Shown here: positions 16,776 to 29,492 of the stretch, piece after piece
How the letters are laid out: each line of letters begins with the position of its first letter
How positions within the stretch are numbered: the stretch's first letter is position 1
Origin: Deltaproteobacteria bacterium
GTDB lineage: Bacteria; Desulfobacterota; Binatia; UBA9968
DNA length: 38,338 nucleotides
Assembly (NCBI GenBank): GCA_009692615.1
Contig: SHYW01000043.1
Location: forward strand, 1-38,338
Direction: 5' to 3'
The notes under the pieces: generated by a model
What the model saw: the letters and a program-made list of their open reading frames with translations, nothing else
Database searches by the model: none
Told to the model about the DNA's origin: nothing
Translations under genes and position numbers: made by a program

Positions 16776-18671
16776 ATGAACCTATTCCCTGCCCTGCGAA
16801 CCACTCCCCTCCCCGGCGGCTACATGGGAAAAATTCTCCGCGTCAATTTAACCGACGGCAAGCTCACCGACGAGAATCTGCCCGAAGAACCGATCTTAAA
16901 AAAGTTCATCGGCGGCCAGGCGCTGGCTTTATACATTTTAATGAATGAGTTGCCGCTCAACGCGACGCCCTTCGGCCCGGAAAATAAAGTTGTCATGATG
17001 ACCGGCCCGCTCACCGGCAACGGATTTACGCCCGGCGGCACGAAGATGACCGCGGTCTACTTGAGCCCGCTCACCAACACCACACTCGGCCGCGGCGCCA
17101 CCAGCGGCTACTGGGCGACTTATCTCAAAGCCGCCGGCTACGACGGCGTCATTGTCGAGGGCGTTTCGCCGAAGCCGGTCTATCTCTACATCAAAGATGG
17201 CCATGCCGAATTGTGCGACGGCGCCAAAGTCTGGGGCCTCGGCACCCGCGACACCGAAGATCGCCTGCGCGAGATCGTCGGCAACCGCGACGCTAGAGTT
17301 CTGTGCATCGGCCCAGCGGGAGAAAACCTGAACCGTGGCGCGATGCTCGCCAACGACTACAACCATTTCGCCGCCCATAGCGGCGGCGCCGTGCTCGGTT
17401 CGAAAAAATTGAAAGCCATCGTCGTCAGCGGCACGTTGCGGCCGGGCCATCGTGATAAAGCCAAACTCGCCGACGCCGGTTTGCGTTGGCGCAACGTCTT
17501 GCAGCAACACGATGTCAAGAAAAAGAAAACCAAATACGGCCACGGCGACGCCTGGGGCGCGCTGAATAATTTAAATTGGCGCAGCACCGACATCCAGCCG
17601 GCGCACATCGCCGGCTTCGCCGACAACGACGTCGTGCTCCGTCCCTGCTTCCAATGCGCGCGCATGTGTCCCTGGGACGCCAAGTTGGGCGCCGGCGAAT
17701 TCAAAGGCACCGTCGTTCACTTCAACGCCGGCGGCGAATGGCTCGACAGCTTTTTTAATCTCGGCATCAAAGGCAACGCCGTGCTCTACTTAGCCGAGAA
17801 GATCAACAATCTCGGCATCGAGTGCAGTCACTTCTCCTGCGGCGCCGGCGTCGCGTTTGAAGCATGGGAGAAGGGCTTACTCGGTCCGGATCGAACCAAC
17901 GGCTTGAAACTCGAATGGGGCAACGTCGAAGCTGTAGACAAATTGCTCGACATGGCGGCGCGGCGCGAAGGCTGGCTCGGTAATCTGCTCGCCGAAGGTC
18001 CCAAGCAACTCGCCGAGGCGCTCGGCGGCGACGCGCCCAATTGGGCGGTGCACACCAAAGGCGGCACGCCGGCAATGCACGAATGGCGCCCATTGCTCGG
18101 CCAAATGTTGAGAGAACTAGTCGCCAGCGGCGGCATGAAACCGCAGGGCGGCGGCTCGAAAAATCCCCCACCCGATCTGCGCGACAACGAAAATTGGGGC
18201 CCGTTGGAAATGGACAACCCAGAAGGTTGGGTCTGGTCCCATGTGCTTTCAGAACAGTACCGCCAGTTCACCGGCATCTTCGGTGGCTGCTGGTTCGCCC
18301 AGGAGGTGCACAAGAAAGATGGATTGAATTCCATCGTCGATGCTTTCAATGCCATCACCGGCTGGAATTTTTCCATGGAAGAAGCATTGCAAGCCGGCCA
18401 CCGCAGCATGATCTTGCAAAGCCTCTTCGGTACTCAACGCGGCTGGATCGCCGACTTCGACTGGCAAGACGTCGGCCCAAGATTCTTAGAACCGATCCCC
18501 GACGGCAAGTACAAAGGCTTCACCATCGCCAAATGGCTGCCGGACATGATCTGGGACTACTACAAAAAATCCGGCCGCCATGAGCGCACCGGCCGGCCGT
18601 TCAAAGACACCTTGGAGAAACTTGGGTTGGAAGAATTCGCAGTGTGGAGTCAGGAGGCCGGACAGCTTTAG
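16776..18671 (+). CDS. Aldehyde:ferredoxin oxidoreductase (AOR) family, tungsten/molybdenum-pterin enzyme 1
   Basis: A 631-residue AOR-family protein of normal length. The N-terminal domain begins GGYMGKILRVNLTDGK and contains GPLTGNGFTPGGTKM, GRGATSGYWATYLKAAGYDG and GPAGENLNRGAMLANDYNH. The [4Fe-4S] ligands are C291-x2-C294-x3-C298 (CFQCARMC), with a fourth Cys at about 505 in GGCWFA. Glu321 in GGEWLDSF aligns with the active-site Glu of Pyrococcus AOR. The enzymes oxidise aldehydes to acids, or the reverse, with ferredoxin. AAGGA precedes the ATG. The segment matching the pterin-binding DxxGLD motif reads NNLGIECSHFSCG, which is unusual. The product is about 70% identical by eye to the second copy over the central third. 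Confidence 0.88.
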   Translation: MNLFPALRTTPLPGGYMGKILRVNLTDGKLTDENLPEEPILKKFIGGQALALYILMNELPLNATPFGPENKVVMMTGPLTGNGFTPGGTKMTAVYLSPLTNTTLGRGATSGYWATYLKAAGYDGVIVEGVSPKPVYLYIKDGHAELCDGAKVWGLGTRDTEDRLREIVGNRDARVLCIGPAGENLNRGAMLANDYNHFAAHSGGAVLGSKKLKAIVVSGTLRPGHRDKAKLADAGLRWRNVLQQHDVKKKKTKYGHGDAWGALNNLNWRSTDIQPAHIAGFADNDVVLRPCFQCARMCPWDAKLGAGEFKGTVVHFNAGGEWLDSFFNLGIKGNAVLYLAEKINNLGIECSHFSCGAGVAFEAWEKGLLGPDRTNGLKLEWGNVEAVDKLLDMAARREGWLGNLLAEGPKQLAEALGGDAPNWAVHTKGGTPAMHEWRPLLGQMLRELVASGGMKPQGGGSKNPPPDLRDNENWGPLEMDNPEGWVWSHVLSEQYRQFTGIFGGCWFAQEVHKKDGLNSIVDAFNAITGWNFSMEEALQAGHRSMILQSLFGTQRGWIADFDWQDVGPRFLEPIPDGKYKGFTIAKWLPDMIWDYYKKSGRHERTGRPFKDTLEKLGLEEFAVWSQEAGQL

Positions 18672-21268: not shown

Positions 21269-22261
21269 ATGAAAATATTCCATACCACGATTGCAGTTTT
21301 CATGCTCTTCGCGCTCGCGACAAGCGTCGCCCACGCCGAAAAAATCCGCACGGCGATCCCGCAGGCTAACTTAAACTATCTCTCGATCTACGTCGCCGAC
21401 GCGCGCGGCTTCTTCAAAGACGAAGGGCTCGATAATGAAACCGTGGTCATCTCCGGCCCGCTGTCCATCGCCGCGTTGCTCAGCGGCGACGTTGACTACA
21501 GCGGCGCCGGCGGCAGCGGCATGCGCGCCGCGCTCAAAGGCGCACCGCTCAAGGGTTTCTATTTTCAATCGGAGAAGGTTACTTTTTACTTGGTCGCCGA
21601 TCCGAGCATAAAATCCACCGCCGACTTGAAAAGCAAAAGAGTCGCCATCGGCAGCGCCGGCGATACGCAGGACCGGATGATCACCATGTTCGCCGAACGC
21701 GGCGGAGTGAGCAGCCGCGACATCGTCCGCATCGCCGTCGGCGCCGATACCGCGACGAGAATTCTCACGATCAAAAGCGGCAATGCCCATGCCACCACTG
21801 TCGATCCCGGTGGGTTGGTTTTCGCGCAGAAAGAAGGTCTCGTTTCGCTCGGCTTTCTCGGTGATCTATTTCCTATGCCGTTTCAAGGTTTTGTCACCGC
21901 GGAAAAAAAGCTGCGTGACAATCCGGCGCAGGTCAAACGCTGGCTCAAGGGCGCGATCCGCGGCTTGATGTTCGTCCGCGATCGACCTGAAGAAGCTGTC
22001 GACCTCGGCATCAAAAAACTTCAGTTGGGCAAAGCCACCCGCGCCATGGTCGTCGAAGGTGTGAAGAACTACGTCCGCGCCCTACCCCAAGGCGTGCCCG
22101 GACTACCGAGCGCCGAAGGGGTGAAAAATTTCCTCGAATACGACATCAAGATTCCCCTCGGCATCAAAGAGGATATTCCCGCCGAGCGTTTGTTGAACTT
22201 GCAACTCGTCGAAGAAGTCAAAAAAGAACTGGAAGCCGCGCAAAGGAGAATTAGCAAATGA
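21269..22261 (+). CDS. NMT1/THI5-type (TauA-like) substrate-binding protein, exported
   Basis: A 330-residue periplasmic binding protein. The signal peptide is about residues 1-23 (TTIAVFMLFALATSVAHA, then EK). Family stretches are NYLSIYVADARGFFKDEGL, LLSGDVDYSGAGGSGMRAALKG and DLKSKRVAIGSAGDTQDRM. It is related to the genes at 12648 and 26395 but not a recent copy. Its TGA overlaps the ATG of the class II aldolase gene (ATGA at 22258-22261), so the two are translationally coupled. No transporter membrane genes are nearby. Confidence 0.85.
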   Translation: MKIFHTTIAVFMLFALATSVAHAEKIRTAIPQANLNYLSIYVADARGFFKDEGLDNETVVISGPLSIAALLSGDVDYSGAGGSGMRAALKGAPLKGFYFQSEKVTFYLVADPSIKSTADLKSKRVAIGSAGDTQDRMITMFAERGGVSSRDIVRIAVGADTATRILTIKSGNAHATTVDPGGLVFAQKEGLVSLGFLGDLFPMPFQGFVTAEKKLRDNPAQVKRWLKGAIRGLMFVRDRPEEAVDLGIKKLQLGKATRAMVVEGVKNYVRALPQGVPGLPSAEGVKNFLEYDIKIPLGIKEDIPAERLLNLQLVEEVKKELEAAQRRISK

Positions 22262-22986
22262 CCTCGGAACAAGATCTACGCGAACAGTTGGCGCTGTGCA
22301 CGCGCATTTTTGCCATGCAAAGCATGATCGGCCTGTTCGGCCACGTGAGCGTGTACCAGCCGGAGACCAAGACGGTTTTCATCACGCCGGGCATGGGCTC
22401 GGACAAGGGCAGCCTCACGCCGGAAGAGATAGTGCCCTGCGACTTGAGCGGCAAACCGCTCGCCGGCAAAGAAGGGCCGCCGGTGGAATGGCCGATTCAC
22501 ACCGCGCTGCACGGCGCCCGCGCCGATGCTCTGGCGGTGGCGCACTTGCATACACCCCACGCGACGCTGTTCGCCATCGCTAAAAGAAAATTTCAACCCG
22601 TCACGCTGCAAGGAGCGATCTTCGCCGACGGCGTGCCGCTCTATCCCGAAGCGCAGTTGATCACCAATCCGCAACGCGGCGACGCATTAATGAAGGTCAT
22701 CGGCGACAAACGCGCCGCGCTCTTGCGCGGCCACGGCATCGTCGTCGTCGGGCAAAATCTCCAAGAAGTGCTTTACAGCGCGCTAGTCTTGGAAGACGAC
22801 ACGAAAAAAACTTTGCAAGCCGCCACCCTCGGCGAAGTCGGCACCATCAGCGCTGAAGAGTGCAAAGAGTTCGCTGCCGAGATCGCCTTGGAGCGACGCG
22901 CCGGCCGAGCCTGGAATTATTTTCGCAGTTTGGAAGCGCGCTGGGATCGTCAACCGTCGACGGGGCGGAGCGAGTTGTTTCCGTAG
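22258..22986 (+). CDS. Class II aldolase/adducin family protein
   Basis: A 242-residue class II aldolase-fold protein. Zinc ligands appear as HLHTPH (about residues 99-104) and the distal RGHGIVVVG; an acidic residue in PPVEWPIH is a candidate catalytic base. Members split or decarboxylate hydroxy-acid or sugar-phosphate substrates. AAAGGAGA lies 7 bases before the ATG, and the start overlaps the preceding stop. The substrate is unknown. Coupling to a binding protein suggests uptake or sensing of the same compound. Confidence 0.83.
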   Translation: MTSEQDLREQLALCTRIFAMQSMIGLFGHVSVYQPETKTVFITPGMGSDKGSLTPEEIVPCDLSGKPLAGKEGPPVEWPIHTALHGARADALAVAHLHTPHATLFAIAKRKFQPVTLQGAIFADGVPLYPEAQLITNPQRGDALMKVIGDKRAALLRGHGIVVVGQNLQEVLYSALVLEDDTKKTLQAATLGEVGTISAEECKEFAAEIALERRAGRAWNYFRSLEARWDRQPSTGRSELFP

Positions 22987-23009: not shown

Positions 23010-23101
23010 AATCCCTCGATACGACCCTACGGGTCTACTCGGGAAATCGGAATGCCAATCCGTTTCCCCGAGTAAGCCCGAAGGGCTGTATCGAGGGGTT
23101 C
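23010..23101. repeat. Palindromic repeat, family P, copy 1
   Basis: An approximately 90-base near-perfect palindrome. The outer arms read ATCCCTCGATACG and TGTATCGAGGGGTT, the inner arms CTACTCGGGAAATCGG and CGTTTCCCCGAGTAA. It lies between the aldolase and BNR genes. Copies with the same core are at 24226-24330 and 27495-27589. Confidence 0.8.
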
Positions 23102-23164
23102 CGATCGGCCTGTTGAACACCAAGCGCATGTCGAAGGATCAATCAGATTCTCATCGGAGGTTGT

Positions 23165-24220
23165 ATGAGCGAAGGCGTTAGACTCTACGCCGGCACCCAA
23201 CATGGGTTGATCACTTGGAAGTCGACGAGTTCCGGATGGCAAGAAGTCTCGCGCCACTTCGAAAACGGCATCATCGACTCGATCCACGGCTGCAGGCGGT
23301 CGCCGGAAATAGTTTTCGTCGGCGTCACCCATGACGGACTTTATCGAACCATCGACGGCGGCAAGAGCTGGGCGAAAGTCTTCGATGGCGATATCCGCTC
23401 GGTCACCGTCGATTCCACCGATGACAAAATTGTCTACACCGGCATCGAACCGGTCGGGCTATTTCGCAGCGAGGATGGCGGCGACAGCTGGCAGGAAGTC
23501 GCCGCGTTGAAAAAGTTGCCGCAGTCGGTGCGCAAAAACTGGTGGTACCCGCAAGCGCCGCACCATGGCCATGTGCGCAATATTCATATTCATCCCGACG
23601 ACTCGAACATCATCTATCTCTGCCTCGAACACGGCGGCATCGTGCGCAGCTTCGACCGCGGCGCCACCTGGGAGGATGTCAGCAAAGGCATCGACTATCT
23701 CGACATCCATGTCATCGCCAACTTTCCTAAACGCAACGACCTTTACTACGTGGCGAGCGCGCGCGGCTTCTTCACCAGCGAAAAACCGGAAGACGGCTGG
23801 ACTCGCGCCGAAGACGGTATGACGCGCGACTACTTTCACGATTTTCTTTTTTTGAATCCGCAGCGCGAAGGCGAGAAGGCGACCATGCTGATCGCCACCG
23901 CCGACGCTTCGCCAGATTTTTGGCGCAGAGAAAACCGCGGCGCACGCGCGGCGATCTTCAATAGCACCGATGGCGCAAAATCTTGGTCGCGCATCGCCAA
24001 TGGCCTCGCCGAAGAACTCGACTCGATGGTTTGGGCGCTGGTGCATCACCCGACCGATCATAATTCAGTCTTAGCCGGCTTCGGCAACGTCGCCCGCGGC
24101 CACGCGTCGGGCGCCGGTGGCGCCGGCGATCTAATGATCAGCCGCGACCGCGGTGATAGTTGGGAGAGATTGGATATCGATCTGCCCGCCGATCGAGTTC
24201 TCTGGGCGGCGGCTGATTAA
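23165..24220 (+). CDS. BNR/sialidase-type beta-propeller repeat protein, probably cytosolic
   Basis: A 351-residue protein made of repeated beta-propeller blades. At least five Asp-box-like motifs are visible: TIDGGKSW, SEDGGDSW, SFDRGATW, STDGAKSW and SRDRGDSW. Family proteins include sialidases, VPS10-like receptors and photosystem assembly factors. No signal peptide is seen (it starts MSEGVRLYAGTQHG), so it is unlike secreted sialidases. GGAGG lies 5-6 bases before the ATG. A ligand-binding, lactonase-like or assembly role next to the AOR gene is possible, but no catalytic set is recognised. Confidence 0.8.
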   Translation: MSEGVRLYAGTQHGLITWKSTSSGWQEVSRHFENGIIDSIHGCRRSPEIVFVGVTHDGLYRTIDGGKSWAKVFDGDIRSVTVDSTDDKIVYTGIEPVGLFRSEDGGDSWQEVAALKKLPQSVRKNWWYPQAPHHGHVRNIHIHPDDSNIIYLCLEHGGIVRSFDRGATWEDVSKGIDYLDIHVIANFPKRNDLYYVASARGFFTSEKPEDGWTRAEDGMTRDYFHDFLFLNPQREGEKATMLIATADASPDFWRRENRGARAAIFNSTDGAKSWSRIANGLAEELDSMVWALVHHPTDHNSVLAGFGNVARGHASGAGGAGDLMISRDRGDSWERLDIDLPADRVLWAAAD

Positions 24221-24225
24221 TCAAG

Positions 24226-24330
24226 AATCCCTCGCTACGCGCTGCGCGCTACTCGGGAAATCGGTCTTTGAATCAGACCGGACTGCAATCCGATTCCCCG
24301 AGTAGACCCGCAGGATCGTAGCGAGGGGCT
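24226..24330. repeat. Palindromic repeat, family P, copy 2
   Basis: An approximately 105-base palindrome. The outer arms read AATCCCTCGCTACG and CGTAGCGAGGGGCT, the inner arms CTACTCGGGAAATCGG and CCGATTCCCCGAGTAG. An extra inner hairpin is GGTCTTTGAATCAGACC. It lies 5 bases after the BNR stop and 35 bases before the second AOR gene. Confidence 0.82.
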
Positions 24331-24365
24331 CCGACATCCGAGCAACCATTTATCAAGGAACCGTA

Positions 24366-26273
24366 ATGGCCAACTCCGACTACACAAACTTCTTCCCAAC
24401 CACACGCACAACCCGCCTCCCCGGCGGCTACATGGGAAAAATCCTGCGCGTCGACATGACGACGGGAAAACTCACCGACATAAATCTTCCCGAAGAACCG
24501 CAGCTGCGCAAGTATTGGGGCGGGCAACTTTTCGCCGAGTATGTCTTACTCAACGAACTGCCGCTCGACATCGATCCCTACGATGCGAAAAATATTATCG
24601 TCGGCATGACCGGCCCGATCACCGGCACTGGTTTCACACCTGGCGGCACCAAGATGTGCTTCGTCTATTTAAGCCCGGCGACGAAATATACTCTCGGCCG
24701 CGGCGCCACCAGCGGCTACTTCGGCACTTCGCTAAAAAACGCCGGCTACGACGGCATCATCGTCACCGGCGCGGCGCGAACGCCAAAATATCTTTACATC
24801 GGCGAAGACAAAGTCGAACTGCGCGACGCGAGCCATGTCTGGGGCAAAGGTATTCGCGAGACCGAAGACACGCTGCGCAAAGAGTCCGGCCATCAAGATG
24901 CGCGTGTCGGCTGCATCGGTCCCGCCGGGGAAAATCTTGTCCGAGCCGCCATGTTGGTCAACGATTACAATCACACCGCGGCCCATGGCTTGGGTGCGGT
25001 GATGGGCTCGAAAAAACTCAAAGCCTTGGTCGCCTGGGGCACCAAGCGGCCGCGCTTGCACGACAAAAATAAACTGATCGACGCCGGCGCGCGCTGGGCC
25101 AAAGCGATCGCCTCGCGCAAAACGACGGTGAAAAAACGTTTGACCAGCGTCGGCCACGGCGAAGATTGGGGCGCGATCACGAAATTGAATTGGCGCAGCA
25201 CGATCATCACCGACGAAGCCAAAGGGCTCGATCAGAACCGCGTCACTCTTCGTCCCTGCTTCCAATGTCCCCGCATGTGCCCGTGGGACGTTGAAATCGG
25301 CGAGGGCCGCTTCAAAGGCAAGATCGGCCACTTCAACGCCGGCAGCGAATGGATGGACACTTTTTATAATCTCGGCTTCAAGGGCAACGATGTGCTTTAC
25401 CTCTCCGAGCGCATCAACGACCTTGGCATCGAGTGCAGCCACTTCGCCTGCGGCGCTGGCCTCGCCTTCGAAGCCTGGGAGAAAGGCGTGCTCGGCCCCG
25501 ACAAAACCGACGGCTTGAAGTTGGAATGGGGCAACATGGAAGCGGTCGAGACGTTGCTCGAACGCTGCGCCCGGCGCGAGACGTGGCTCGGCAACATTCT
25601 CGCCGACGGGCCGAAAGAATTGGCCGAAGAGTTAGGCGGCGAAGCGAAGAATTGGGTAGTGCACACCAAAGGTGGCACGCCGGCGCAACATGAGTGGCGT
25701 CCGATGCTGAGCCAAATGCTGCGCGAGCTGGTCGCCAGCGGCGGCATGAAGCCGCAAGGCGCCGGTGGCAAGGAACCTCCCGACGATTTGAAGTATCGTG
25801 AAAAGTGGGGACCGCTCGATCCTAATCAGCCCGACGGCTGGACGAGTTCGCATCTGATCACCGAAAAAGTCCGCCAAGCCTGCGGCATCATGGGCGGCTG
25901 CTGGTTCGCCTTGAACGACAAGCCGCGTGACGGCGTGCAGAGCATGCTCGACGCGCTGAACGCCACCACAGGATGGGATGTAAGCCTGGATGAACTCATC
26001 GACGCCGGCCACCGCGCGATTATTTTACAAAGCGTCTTCGGCACTCAGCGCGGCTGGATCGCCGAACATGACTGGCAAGATGTCGGCCCGCGCTTTTTGG
26101 AACCGATCCCCGACGGCAAATACCAAGGCTTCACAATTGCGAAATGGTTGCCCGGCTTGGTTTATGAATATTACAAAATCTCCGGCCGCCACGAACACAC
26201 CGGCCGGCCGTTCATGGACACGCTGGAAAAATTGGGGATCGAGGAATTCAAAGAGTGGAGCCAGTTAGATTGA
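24366..26273 (+). CDS. Aldehyde:ferredoxin oxidoreductase (AOR) family, tungsten/molybdenum-pterin enzyme 2
   Basis: A 635-residue AOR-family paralogue of the gene at 16776. It shares GGYMGKILRV, the GFTPGGTKM and GRGATSGYFGT loops, and long identical stretches near the C-terminus such as WIAEHDWQDVGPRFLEPIPD. The [4Fe-4S] ligands are C298-x2-C301-x3-C305 (CFQCPRMC), with the fourth Cys at about 512 in GGCWFAL. The same unusual NDLGIECSHFACG segment replaces the pterin-binding DxxGLD motif. The second copy may differ in substrate. AAGGAACCGT precedes the ATG. Electrons probably pass to the four-cluster ferredoxin encoded upstream. Confidence 0.88.
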   Translation: MANSDYTNFFPTTRTTRLPGGYMGKILRVDMTTGKLTDINLPEEPQLRKYWGGQLFAEYVLLNELPLDIDPYDAKNIIVGMTGPITGTGFTPGGTKMCFVYLSPATKYTLGRGATSGYFGTSLKNAGYDGIIVTGAARTPKYLYIGEDKVELRDASHVWGKGIRETEDTLRKESGHQDARVGCIGPAGENLVRAAMLVNDYNHTAAHGLGAVMGSKKLKALVAWGTKRPRLHDKNKLIDAGARWAKAIASRKTTVKKRLTSVGHGEDWGAITKLNWRSTIITDEAKGLDQNRVTLRPCFQCPRMCPWDVEIGEGRFKGKIGHFNAGSEWMDTFYNLGFKGNDVLYLSERINDLGIECSHFACGAGLAFEAWEKGVLGPDKTDGLKLEWGNMEAVETLLERCARRETWLGNILADGPKELAEELGGEAKNWVVHTKGGTPAQHEWRPMLSQMLRELVASGGMKPQGAGGKEPPDDLKYREKWGPLDPNQPDGWTSSHLITEKVRQACGIMGGCWFALNDKPRDGVQSMLDALNATTGWDVSLDELIDAGHRAIILQSVFGTQRGWIAEHDWQDVGPRFLEPIPDGKYQGFTIAKWLPGLVYEYYKISGRHEHTGRPFMDTLEKLGIEEFKEWSQLD

Positions 26274-26308
26274 GCTGAAACTTATCGACGCATTACCTTT
26301 TTCTTATT

Positions 26309-26384
26309 CCGTCATTCCCGCGTACGCGGGAATCCAGGTTTATTCCTTACCTGGGCTCCCGCTTTCGCGGGAGCGACGACTGAC
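26309..26384. repeat. Double hairpin repeat (dRS3-like)
   Basis: Two hairpins lie 21 bases apart: ATTCCCGCGTACGCGGGAAT (26314-26333) and GCTCCCGCTTTCGCGGGAGC (26355-26374). They are flanked by the pairing segments CCGTCATTCC and CGACTGACGG, and joined by CCAGG/CCTGG. The first matches the ATTCCC-N8-GGGAAT pattern of Neisseria dRS3 elements and of similar repeats in many proteobacteria. It ends 10 bases before the next start codon, so it lies in that gene's leader. Confidence 0.8.
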
Positions 26385-26394
26385 GGAGACCTGA

Positions 26395-27393
26395 ATGAAA
26401 AACAGACCAAAGTCCCGATTGAGAATGTTCATCGTAATTCTGCTCGTGGCACAATTTCTACTCGCAGCCGCCGCGCACGCCCAAGCGTTAAAAAAAATCC
26501 GCCTGGCCAGCTCGTCGACCAACGTCTCGTTCCTCGCTCTCTACACCGCGCTCCATCGCGGCTTCTTCAAAGACGAAGGCATCGATCTGGAAATCATTTT
26601 TATGCCGGCCAATCTCGCCAGCACGGCGGTACTGAACGGCGACGTCGATTTCAACGGCGCTGTCACCGGCACCATCGGCGCCGCGGTGCAAGGCCGGCCG
26701 ATGAAGGTCCTGCTCTTCACCGTGTCCAAGCCGTTGCTGTTCTTGGTAAGCCAGAAAAACATCAAAGACGTAAAACAACTCAAAGGCAAAAAAATCGCCG
26801 GCAGCTCGCCTGGCGGCTCGGCGACGCTGCTGGCGAACCAAGCGCTCAAACAAATCGGTTTGGAACCTGGCAAAGACGTCTCGGTTTTGCAAATGTCCGG
26901 CAGCGCCGCCAGCCGCTACGCAGTTTTAGAATCCGGCGTGGTCGAAGCGTCGTTGTTGTCCGTACCGGAAAATATCATCGCTGTCGAAAAAGGTTACAAC
27001 GAGTTGCTGTTTCTCGGCGATGTCGTCGAGTTTCCCCAAAACGGCTTCGGCACTTCGGATAAACGCATTCGTGAAAACCCGGACGAAGTCTACCGCATGG
27101 TGCGTGCCACGCTGCGCGGCCTGCAATTCATCTGGGATAAAAACAACAGCGAAGCAGTGACCAATGTCCTGATGAAGCAATGGAAAGTCAGCGACCGCAA
27201 GATGGCCGCCGAGATGTCGCGCCAAGTTGGCCGAGTGCTGACCAAAGACGCCTACGTCAAACCGGAATCCGTGCAAGTATTGATCGACCTCGCCCGCGAG
27301 AGCGCCAAAGTCAGCAAACCGGTTTCAGTCTCAGATGTCGTCGATTACAGTTTCTTGGATCGAGCAAGGAAAGAGTTGGGGATCGGGAAATAG
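26395..27393 (+). CDS. NMT1/THI5-type (TauA-like) substrate-binding protein, exported
   Basis: A 332-residue periplasmic binding protein. The signal peptide is about residues 1-30, with basic start KNRPKSRLR, core FIVILLVAQFLLAAAA and cleavage after HAQ or AHA. Family stretches are VSFLALYTALHRGFFKDEGI, VLNGDVDFNGAVTGTIGAAVQG and QLKGKKIAGSSPGGSATLL. It follows the second AOR gene after a hairpin repeat. No transporter membrane subunits are nearby. Confidence 0.85.
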   Translation: MKNRPKSRLRMFIVILLVAQFLLAAAAHAQALKKIRLASSSTNVSFLALYTALHRGFFKDEGIDLEIIFMPANLASTAVLNGDVDFNGAVTGTIGAAVQGRPMKVLLFTVSKPLLFLVSQKNIKDVKQLKGKKIAGSSPGGSATLLANQALKQIGLEPGKDVSVLQMSGSAASRYAVLESGVVEASLLSVPENIIAVEKGYNELLFLGDVVEFPQNGFGTSDKRIRENPDEVYRMVRATLRGLQFIWDKNNSEAVTNVLMKQWKVSDRKMAAEMSRQVGRVLTKDAYVKPESVQVLIDLARESAKVSKPVSVSDVVDYSFLDRARKELGIGK

Positions 27394-27447
27394 ATTTTTG
27401 GGGTTCGAGTGTTGGGTTTCGGGTGGATGACCGAACGGAGCTATGTA

Positions 27448-27468
27448 GGGGCGCGATTCATCGCGCCC
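27448..27468. repeat. Short GTAGGGGC-type hairpin
   Basis: A perfect 8-bp stem GGGCGCGA/TCGCGCCC with loop TTCA, preceded by TGTAGG. It belongs to a set of short hairpins with the same flank but different stem sequences. Others in this window are at 11650-11672, 21186-21204, 31069-31088 and 37257-37307. Confidence 0.7.
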
Positions 27469-27494
27469 TCTTGGCGGTGCGGTAGGACGGGGGG

Positions 27495-27589
27495 ACCCCT
27501 CGATGCGCGGCCGATGACGGCCGCTACTCGGGGAATCGGATTGGATTTTCCGATTCCCCGAGTAGCCCGTAAGGGCGTAGCGCGGGGCG
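27495..27589. repeat. Palindromic repeat, family P, copy 3
   Basis: An approximately 95-base palindrome. The outer arms read ACCCCTCGATGCGC and GTAGCGCGGGGCGT, the inner arms CTACTCGGGGAATCGGA and TCCGATTCCCCGAGTAG; the last pair is a perfect 17-bp match. It lies between the last binding-protein gene and the convergent alcohol dehydrogenase gene. Confidence 0.85.
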
Positions 27590-27622: not shown

Positions 27623-28654
27623 CTAAAGCAACGGATCGATAATCACCTTGATCGAATCCAGCCCACTCGCCGTCAGCTGAAAACCGACGCCGGTTTCCGC
27701 CAACGGCAAGCGATGCGTCACCATGTCGGCAACGCGCACCTTGCGTCCGCGAATCAACTCCAGCGCTTCTTTCAAATCGTCGCCGCTGCCGGCGTAGGAA
27801 GTGACCACGTTAATCTCGTCGCGCCAGAAATCGAACAGCGGGATCGGCACATCGACGCCGGCCGTCGTCGGCGCGAAAAACAATAGCGTACCGCCGCGGT
27901 CGACCGACTTAACCGCCTGCTGAATCGCCGCCATGGCGCCCGTGCAAACGATCACCAGATCCGCCAAGCGGCCGTCGTTCAACTCTTTGAGCCGCGCTGG
28001 CACGTCTTCAGCGCCGTGAATAGCGGCATCGGCGCCGAACCGTTTCGCCGCGTTCAAACGATACTCACTGATATCGGTGGCGATGACGCGCGCCGCGCCG
28101 CGCGAGCGAGCGAGTTGAATGTGTAGCAAACCGGAAATCCCGCTACCGATGACCAAAACCGTCTGCCCCGCAGCAAGCTTGGCAAAACGCTGCGCCCGCA
28201 CGACGCAAGCCAGCGGCTCGATGAACGAACCCTCGTCAAACGTCATCGAATCGGGAATGGGCAGCGTGCCGAGTTCGACGTTGATCTTCGGCACGCGAAT
28301 ATATTCGGCGAAGCCACCAGGCTCGAAGTGAGTCGCGCGCAGTAAATCACAGACGGATTGATGCCCTGCTGTACAGTAGCGGCAGGTGCCGCAAGACACA
28401 TGATGCGTCGAAAAGATCCGATCGCCGACTTTGAATCCTTCAACACCCGCGCCAACTTCGACGACTTCCGCGGTGATCTCATGGCCGAGGACAAGAGGTG
28501 CTTTCCTGACTCGGTACCACTCCATGAGATCGCTGCCGCAGATTCCGCTCGCACGAGTTCGAATTAAGATCTCACCAGCGCCGATTTTCGGCACTGGCAA
28601 TTCTTCCAACCGCACATCACGGTTGTTGTAGTACATAGCGACGCGCATGCTCAT
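27623..28654 (-). CDS. Zinc-dependent medium-chain alcohol/polyol dehydrogenase
   Basis: A 343-residue MDR-family dehydrogenase. Catalytic zinc ligands are the Cys of GICGSD and the GHE motif. The structural zinc site is CGTCRYCTAGHQSVC. The Rossmann nucleotide-binding motif is VIGSGISGLLHIQLA, followed by an acidic residue (ATDIS) that suggests NAD preference. The group includes threonine 3-dehydrogenase and sorbitol dehydrogenase; the substrate here is unknown. I chose ATG 28654 (or 28648), since the protein proper begins MRVAMYYNNRDVRLEEL; an upstream in-frame start would add 37 unrelated residues. It probably shares a transcript with the aldolase gene upstream, 34 bases away. Confidence 0.87.
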   Translation of the reverse strand: MSMRVAMYYNNRDVRLEELPVPKIGAGEILIRTRASGICGSDLMEWYRVRKAPLVLGHEITAEVVEVGAGVEGFKVGDRIFSTHHVSCGTCRYCTAGHQSVCDLLRATHFEPGGFAEYIRVPKINVELGTLPIPDSMTFDEGSFIEPLACVVRAQRFAKLAAGQTVLVIGSGISGLLHIQLARSRGAARVIATDISEYRLNAAKRFGADAAIHGAEDVPARLKELNDGRLADLVIVCTGAMAAIQQAVKSVDRGGTLLFFAPTTAGVDVPIPLFDFWRDEINVVTSYAGSGDDLKEALELIRGRKVRVADMVTHRLPLAETGVGFQLTASGLDSIKVIIDPLL

Positions 28655-28688
28655 TGTCCGCGGAATAAGTTGCAGTAGCCTTATTTTT

Positions 28689-29492
28689 TCAGCTCGCTTT
28701 ACGTGCCTTGGAGCTTTTCTCACTCCCGTAAATCTTGAATGCTTCTTTAACCGATACATTGTCATGCACGATCGCGCGCACCGCTTTGATCATCCCTACA
28801 GGAGAATCGGACTGAAAAATATTCCGGCCCATGTCGACGCCGACGGCGCCGTAGGTAACCGCATTATGCGCCAATTCGAGCGCTTCCAACTCCGGCGTCT
28901 TCTTGCCGCCGGCGACGATGACGGGGATCGGACAGCTGCCGATCAACTCTTCGAAGTTGTCGCAATAATAAGTCTTGACGATATGCGCGCCCATTTCCGC
29001 GGCGATGCGGCAGGACAATCCTAAATAGCGCACGTCACGCGCCATGTCTTTGCCGACGGCAGTGACGGCGAGCACCGGGATGCCGTATTTCTCGCCTTCG
29101 TCGACCAGCTTGGCGAGACTGACCAAAGTCTCTTTCTCGAACTCCGAGCCGACGAAGATCGACAGCGCGATCGCTGAGACGTTCAAGCGAATGCACTCTT
29201 CCATCGAAACAGTAATCTCTTCGTTGGACAATTCTTTGAGAATGCTCGTGCCGCCGGAGACCCGCAGGACAATCGGCTTGTCCGCCTTGGCGTCCACCGA
29301 AGTTCTGAGTACGCCGCGCGTCAGCATGATCGAGTCGGCGTGGGGCATCAGTGGTTCGATGGTTTTGCGCGGCTCTTCCAAACCGCTGGTCGGTCCGAGA
29401 AAGTAGCCGTGGTCGACGGCGAGCATCACGGCCCGTCCATCCGCTTTTATAATTCGCGCCAAACGATTGGCCATTCCCCAGTTCATCGACAT
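28689..29492 (-). CDS. DhnA-type class I aldolase, LsrF-like
   Basis: A 267-residue class I aldolase closely resembling E. coli LsrF. Shared segments include VMLAVDHGYFLGPTSGLEE, LTRGVLR, ELSNEE, RIAAEMGAHIVKTYY, IVAGGKK and VDMGRNIFQSD. The Schiff-base lysine is expected in HIVKTYY. LsrF degrades phospho-AI-2 products by thiolysis, but no lsr transporter, kinase or LsrG is present. A different small phospho-sugar or ketone substrate is therefore likely. GGGAGGG lies 2-6 bases before the ATG. It diverges from the small cupin gene across 123 bases. Confidence 0.85.
   Translation of the reverse strand: MSMNWGMANRLARIIKADGRAVMLAVDHGYFLGPTSGLEEPRKTIEPLMPHADSIMLTRGVLRTSVDAKADKPIVLRVSGGTSILKELSNEEITVSMEECIRLNVSAIALSIFVGSEFEKETLVSLAKLVDEGEKYGIPVLAVTAVGKDMARDVRYLGLSCRIAAEMGAHIVKTYYCDNFEELIGSCPIPVIVAGGKKTPELEALELAHNAVTYGAVGVDMGRNIFQSDSPVGMIKAVRAIVHDNVSVKEAFKIYGSEKSSKARKAS

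Follow-up and report, generated by a model that had tools for sequence, protein, structure and literature searches.

A CCG-tagged, REP-like family of inverted doublets in a Binatia genome, without an identified partner transposase

What are the three palindromes of about 100 bases that lie between genes in a contig of an uncultured bacterium, and how did they come to be there? The contig, SHYW01000043.1 of assembly GCA_009692615.1 (Deltaproteobacteria bacterium; Desulfobacterota, Binatia, UBA9968), was analysed over positions 1 to 38,338, its 38,338 nucleotides (nt) being referred to here as the window. An original prediction, made from the letters of the window alone, took the palindromes for a non-autonomous mobile element or one of the repetitive extragenic palindromic (REP) type. 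All three are confirmed, with the sequence described, at 23010-23101, 24226-24330 and 27495-27589, and their intergenic placement is borne out by genes called on either side. We consider it reasonably probable that they are doublets of a non-autonomous REP family, the copies of which would have been dispersed as folded single-stranded DNA by a transposase of the Y1 type (HUH) that either acts in trans or has since been lost.

Each palindrome consists of two inverted copies of one unit of about 40 nt, with the CCG-tagged 5' tails facing each other. In its own direction, the unit reads CCG(A/T)TT-Y-CC(C/T)-GAG-TA-[hairpin]-G-TA-KCGA-(G/A)GG-R, where the apical hairpin is variable, with 4-8 pairs and a loop of 3-4 nt in 41 of 49 units. 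The core and the outer CCCCTCG-TACG arms that the palindromes had been said to share are indeed shared, but both belong to the two inverted copies of this unit; the middles, which had been said to differ, do so and comprise the spacers and the interchangeable apical hairpins. With up to 3 mismatches allowed, the 16-nt core CTACTCGGGGAATCGG has 6 matches in the window, 2 per palindrome (100 shuffles: mean 0.35, maximum 3). Folded as DNA, the palindromes reach -32.9, -32.2 and -39.4 kcal/mol (z = -7.0, -5.7 and -5.9, respectively). At E <= 1, a covariance model of the unit, R1, with 39 positions, recovers six units in the window and no others, two in each palindrome.

The structure of the unit is maintained through compensatory change. 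R1 was trained on 46 of the 49 units that fit a strict pattern (a loose pattern had given 78); the three left out are irregular or nested hairpins, and their omission slightly favours the structure. Across these 46 units (44 distinct), 99.1% of the cells are paired, 83 cells are changed on both sides compared with 24.5 after shuffling, and the covariation score is 0.432, compared with 0.127 for shuffles and at most 0.077 when the partners are slid. Because the training pattern prescribed GAGTA, GTA and a portion of the outer stem, these columns provide no evidence; it left free the outermost pair (C-G in 30 units, U-A in 10, others) and the apical hairpin, in which columns 17-33 are C-G in 28 units, G-C in 14 and A-U in 2. 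A second set, 55 matches (48 distinct, identical rows being counted once) from 19 loci, some of them overlapping, in six other genomes, is 97.0% paired, with 101 both-side changes against 36.7 and a score of 0.480 against 0.178; its alignment was fitted to the covariance model and leans towards the model's structure, and two of its five covariation measures are close to those of shuffles (both-side-changed pairs, 56 of 500; pair types, 198 of 500). The conserved GAG/KCGA internal loop may be read as putative G-A mismatches in tandem, within a CGAG/CGAG context and with C-G and G-C pairs on either side.

The family extends far beyond the window. When at most 1 mismatch is allowed, the half-site TACTCGGGNAATCGG is matched 58 times across the 5.05-Mb genome (29 times on each strand), compared with none for the reversed control; an absence of the core from the rest of the genome, which the original prediction had named as its refutation, is therefore not what is observed. 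R1 at E <= 0.1 detects 89 units, 70 of these at 40 bits or more, that is, the high copy number of a 20-40-nt palindromic unit that is typical of REPs in general. The commonest apical hairpin, present in 9 of the 89 units, is GCGC-GCA-GCGC, that of the left half of doublet 2. Clustering at 150 bp yields 44 sites, namely, 28 doubles, 9 singles, 5 triples, one group of four and one of five; two of the nine singles, both on contig C5, are 157 bp apart. Among the 45 neighbouring pairs, 32 have facing tags, and the remainder are arranged as '--' (6), '++' (2) or '+-' (5). The spacing ranges from 5 to 109 nt, with 17 of the 32 facing pairs at 10-12 nt and 24 at 5-17 nt. In all 27 facing doublets with spacers of up to 30 nt, the minimum-energy DNA fold contains more pairs between the units than within them, by a slim margin in two cases (18 to 16 and 21 to 18), so that the doublet folds into a single hairpin in the manner of a REPIN.

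Such doublets, which are palindromes of about 90-100 bp with matching ends, could alternatively be palindromic miniature inverted-repeat transposable elements, that is, elements of about 100 bp with CCCCTCG terminal inverted repeats (TIRs) that are moved by a DDE transposase. Given the nine single-unit sites, the 13 neighbouring pairs in other orientations and the breadth of the spacing, as well as the covarying structure that lies within each unit, we regard this interpretation as very improbable.

The composition of the doublets is highly variable. In the spacers of the 27 doublets, 222 of 348 bases are A or T, and their sequences are mostly unrelated, although three share ATTTACC, and the apical hairpins are diverse, some of them occurring with either outer stem. 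In the 22 doublets that could be parsed, the apical hairpins of the two halves differ in every case and the outer stems differ in 19, compared with 14.9 expected (P 0.02); the hairpin distance gives P 0.04, whereas hairpin identity and length difference show no significant heterodimer signal. As these are four uncorrected tests, and 10 of the 32 doublets could not be parsed, the indication of a preference for heterodimers is only weak. At three sites (C20:44896, C84:19701 and C111:14111), a complete CCTGAG..CGAAGG unit is nested inside the apical hairpin of a CCCGAG..CGAGGG unit, a configuration that could reflect either insertion into the hairpin loop or step-by-step growth. Short hairpins of the form CCTGAG..KCGAAGG, with the same internal loop, account for 136 pattern matches in the genome (control, 1); among 100 matches listed, 78 are 15-19 nt long and 22 are longer. 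The CCG tag occupies the same place in several of these (loci L022, L034 and L038) and is missing in others (for example, L079, L169 and L214). The short-loop members are possibly simpler relatives of the window family.

This shuffling of hairpins and spacers, along with the nesting and the failure to find a partner transposase in the genome, would fit a history in which no transposase is involved and the units multiply and swap hairpins when replication switches templates, or when gene conversion takes place, between single strands that have folded. Such a process does not readily bring a unit to dozens of unrelated sites, and dozens of copies in one species alongside none detected in two sister genomes suggest bursts of dispersal; we find this explanation unlikely.

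The units reside between genes. With genes called by a simple codon-usage predictor trained on 16 window genes, all 44 sites are wholly outside predicted genes, in stretches that are 80% coding. Apart from 3 sites at stretch edges, 25 sites are in tandem, 14 in convergent and 2 in divergent gaps, that is, 39 of the 41 classed sites are tandem or convergent; the 125 background gaps in the same stretches include 82 tandem, 23 convergent and 20 divergent ones. REPs are described in tandem and convergent gaps (PMC3733652), and the placement of the units matches that description. Combined with the copy number, the covarying imperfect palindromes and the predominance of inverted doublets, this placement upholds the REP-type assignment of the original prediction.

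The avoidance of divergent gaps also fits a role at RNA ends, whereby the units, once transcribed, are kept mainly as hairpins at the 3' ends of messages, which they stabilise, process or terminate, their spread being incidental; covarying stems would be as useful to RNA as to DNA. The palindromes are not intrinsic terminators by the calls made here, none being among the 22 terminator-like sites between 20.0 and 30.0 kb (shuffle mean, 14.7), nor do the units belong to a known RNA family, as Rfam at gathering thresholds returned tRNA only. Considering, in addition, that sister species lack the units in the orthologous gaps next to the same conserved genes, an RNA-centred explanation appears improbable.

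The distribution of the units among relatives is markedly uneven. In one search of the genus (E <= 0.01, stricter filters), the genome under study, denoted G000, has 88 units and four others have 34, 6, 0 and 0; one of the two genomes with none, G003, is 67% complete. At least one unit is present in 10 of 24 other genomes of the family (26 in G012 and 17 in G017) and in 3 of 33 genomes beyond the family, with a single unit in each. In a scan of 395 genomes of the phylum, in which 16 candidates were scored per genome, at least one of the 394 other genomes yielded matches. The whole-unit pattern occurs in two sequence records, both metagenome-assembled genomes labelled 'Deltaproteobacteria bacterium', which the match positions suggest to be G002 and G012. 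Carriage by phages or plasmids was considered and rejected: the pattern has no exact match in viral contigs (the phage-record collection was outside the scope of that search), and doublet 1 has no match on the plasmids searched. Separately, an unusually dense array of 13 strong R1 units within about 5 kb is found in G012 (locus L094, contig C140, 7459 bases), where it adjoins what appear, by eye, to be repeated fragments of a LysR-type regulator gene.

The palindromes had been placed in an accessory island, a view that finds no support within the genus, given that the region from 20.2 to 30.0 kb is collinear in three of the four same-genus genomes (G002, G003 and G004), at about 77-87% identity, and partly present in the fourth. 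Units are missing in all 13 orthologous gaps examined, namely, the three window gaps in G002, G003 and G004 and two further sites, one compared with G001 and G004 and the other with G002 and G004. R1 at E <= 1 finds no unit in any compared gap, with one weak match (E 0.3) elsewhere in the compared stretch L089, and a loose scan allowing one mismatch at the two further sites produced one chance-like match each in G001, G002 and G004. The varying counts, the empty sister sites and the nesting are consistent with the non-autonomous mobility that had been proposed, albeit indirectly, as no insertion junction or target duplication can be read.

The TnpA-REP transposase that a REP family might be expected to have was looked for in the genome and not found. 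There are two Y1_Tnp genes in G000, with open frames of about 290 amino acids. One is bounded by TIRs of its own, and the other, with no TIR at the threshold used, has a short CCTGAG..CGAAGG match about 265 nt upstream. Among seven Y1 genes tested, four have TIRs, which begin with GTGTCAGACTTGCC.., GGGGTCAG.. or GGGTCAGG.. and do not resemble the units; in the relatives, this is the case for three of five genes tested, one starting with GGGGTCAG and two with GGGTCAGG. Two C-terminal matches of Y1 proteins, one Bac_DnaA_C-like and one helix-turn-helix-like, are both below the Pfam cut-off. At locus L092, a Y1 transposase gene (1671-2600) is bounded by 28-nt inverted repeats, GTGTCAGACTTGCCTAA..TACTAACT, in a TIRYT-like arrangement.

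Some units in relatives lie near genes of this kind; all these are raw proximities, without a chance level. In favour of dispersal by a Y1-type enzyme, two of the four units in G010 lie downstream of a Y1 gene, at about 95 nt from its stop and beyond its TIRs, and three of the seven units in G011 are less than 3 kb from an IS200-like gene, the nearest at about 415 nt. Single cases in G012 and G001 have a unit and a Y1 gene about 1.3 and 2.5 kb apart, respectively. Two candidates were rejected at these loci: a REPtron in G010 (L194), where the units lie beyond the TIRs that bound the Y1 gene, and an IS200 parent in G011, where TnpA in L196 is encoded by a separate IS200-like gene and the three units there are, by eye, in a longer repeated block.

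Several observations weigh against dispersal by a Y1-type transposase. The tag is not GTAG. Neither Y1 gene of G000 is flanked by units, there being no R1 unit at E <= 0.5 in the stretch of about 5 kb around either of them, so that no REPtron or cognate RAYT was identified in this genome, and the TIRs of one of the two genes are 28 nt long. The number of Y1 genes does not track the number of units: G009 has 18 Y1 matches and no units, whereas G000 has 2 and 88-89, respectively. Spacers and apical hairpins mostly differ between doublets, a pattern that copying of whole doublets alone would not leave. Finally, neither junctions nor target duplications are readable at the compared gaps because these gaps are too diverged. 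What the analysis demonstrates is the anatomy of the unit, its covariation, its copy number and placement between genes, the layout of the doublets, the patchy distribution and the nesting; we infer that the copies move, that they do so as single-stranded hairpins and that a Y1-type enzyme is responsible. The unit is a DNA hairpin with imperfect pairing: its 5' foot bears an unpaired CCG(A/T)TT tail, and the outer stem is followed by the conserved internal loop and then by the apical hairpin, which can be exchanged. Inverted units, the most frequent distance between them being 10-12 nt, pair up into a long REPIN-like hairpin. Under the mechanism we favour, the tail together with the irregular hairpin would be recognised by a Y1-type (HUH) transposase, supplied in trans or since lost, with dispersal occurring as folded single-stranded DNA.

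Comparison with described systems places the family near, but outside, the known classes. Reported REPs are mostly GTAG- or CGTC-tagged, and loop variants, inverted dimers and heterodimers are known among them (PMC3733652). As described, the GTAG-REPs, BIMEs and REPtrons associated with TnpA-REP/RAYT in Escherichia, Stenotrophomonas and Marinomonas share a number of features with the window family: they are hairpins of 20-40 nt whose unpaired 5' tag is conserved, the stem is irregular in some families, the loop can vary inside a single family, inverted dimers occur as well as heterodimers, and the copies are numerous and lie in tandem and convergent gaps (PMC3733652, PMC8266576). The Escherichia coli TnpA-REP is reported to require GTAG and an irregular stem (PMC8266576). 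In contrast, the window family carries the tag CCG(A/T)TT; 82 of the 89 units have CCG at the hairpin foot, and there is no unpaired GTAG foot. A GTAG string does occur within the unit, where its last G is paired; 5 of the 44 distinct units have A in this position, pairing with U. Furthermore, no flanking RAYT was found in the genome, and 17 of the 32 facing doublets have spacers of 10-12 nt, mostly unrelated, compared with 20-100 bp for most described spacers. The REPINs of Pseudomonas fluorescens SBW25 are likewise arranged mainly as inverted doublets that fold into a hairpin, and their spacers show less conservation than the REPs themselves (PMC3116915); the window family differs in that the doublet halves have different apical hairpins (22 of 22 parsed) and no RAYT linkage was found in the genome. 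The CGTC-REPs, as described, share a non-GTAG tag and the lack of a dedicated transposase (PMC3733652), although stem, loop and tag are all different, the unit having none of the CGTC tag, the 8-9-bp stem starting with AT and the CCA end. TIR-bounded Y1 genes are described as TIRYT, largely TnpA-REP subclass 2.1, that is, RAYT group 1 (PMC3733652, PMC6006769); Y1 genes with TIRs are present both in the genome and in its relatives, but their ends are GGGGTCAG-, GGGTCAGG- or GTGTCAG-type TIRs, unlike the units. Exact-string searches of the literature, and topic searches judged by title and abstract, found no paper describing the short or the long form of the unit, figures and supplements being outside the scope of these searches.

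More tentatively, one could propose a third REP tag class, defined by the CCG tag and the GAG/KCGA loop, in which the short and long members form one superfamily that grows as whole hairpins are placed into its loops and that needs no dedicated, linked transposase to spread, an idea that we find possible but on balance doubtful.

The coordinates of the units and of the adjacent genes are collected in Table 1. In the same region, the genes at 16776-18671 and 24366-26273, the second of which is the aldehyde ferredoxin oxidoreductase-like gene, are 74-78% identical in matched stretches and 7.6 kb apart. A separate palindrome pair at 26308-26380, CGTCATTCCCGCG..CGCGGGAATCC.., resembles CGTC-class REPs and has many matches in the same-genus genomes G002 and G004. 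The two ends of the contig (5-149 and 38194-38338) are one sequence of about 145 bp in inverted orientation, which recurs in at least 40 places with 99-100% identity, each row that could be checked lying at the end of a contig; the assembly was probably interrupted there by a mobile element of high copy number.

Table 1. Units, spacers and neighbouring genes of the three palindromic doublets in the window
Feature	Position	Strand	Details
REP-like unit, left half of doublet 1	23012..23050	-	Apical hairpin GACCC-GTA-GGGTC, outer pair T-A; 58.7 bits
Spacer of doublet 1	23051..23059	.	9 nt, between two CCG tags
REP-like unit, right half of doublet 1	23060..23098	+	Hairpin AGCCC-GAA-GGGCT, outer pair C-G; 57.8 bits
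REP-like unit, left half of doublet 2	24228..24264	-	Hairpin GCGC-GCA-GCGC; 57.3 bits
Spacer of doublet 2	24265..24289	.	25 nt
REP-like unit, right half of doublet 2	24290..24328	+	56.4 bits
REP-like unit, left half of doublet 3	27496..27539	-	Hairpin GCGGCCG-TCAT-CGGCCGC; 46.0 bits
Spacer of doublet 3	27540..27549	.	10 nt
REP-like unit, right half of doublet 3	27550..27587	+	46.3 bits
Class II aldolase/adducin-like gene, upstream of doublet 1	22258..22986	+	PF00596
Sortilin/BNR-type repeat protein gene, between doublets 1 and 2	23165..24220	+	
Aldehyde ferredoxin oxidoreductase-like gene, downstream of doublet 2	24366..26273	+	AFOR_N, AFOR_C
NMT1-like substrate-binding protein gene, upstream of doublet 3	26395..27393	+	
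Zinc alcohol dehydrogenase-like gene	27623..28765	-	Convergent with the NMT1-like gene, doublet 3 between them

What is genuinely new here is a REP family with a REPIN-like layout and without an identified transposase, the number of which is very uneven between sister species. REP families that lack a partner transposase pose an unsolved puzzle, and the account in the paper that defined the CGTC REPs leaves their mover open (PMC3733652). With 0 to about 89 units within one genus, nested copies and swappable hairpins, the family would make gain and loss countable between close strains, and the covariance model would aid the annotation of uncultured relatives.

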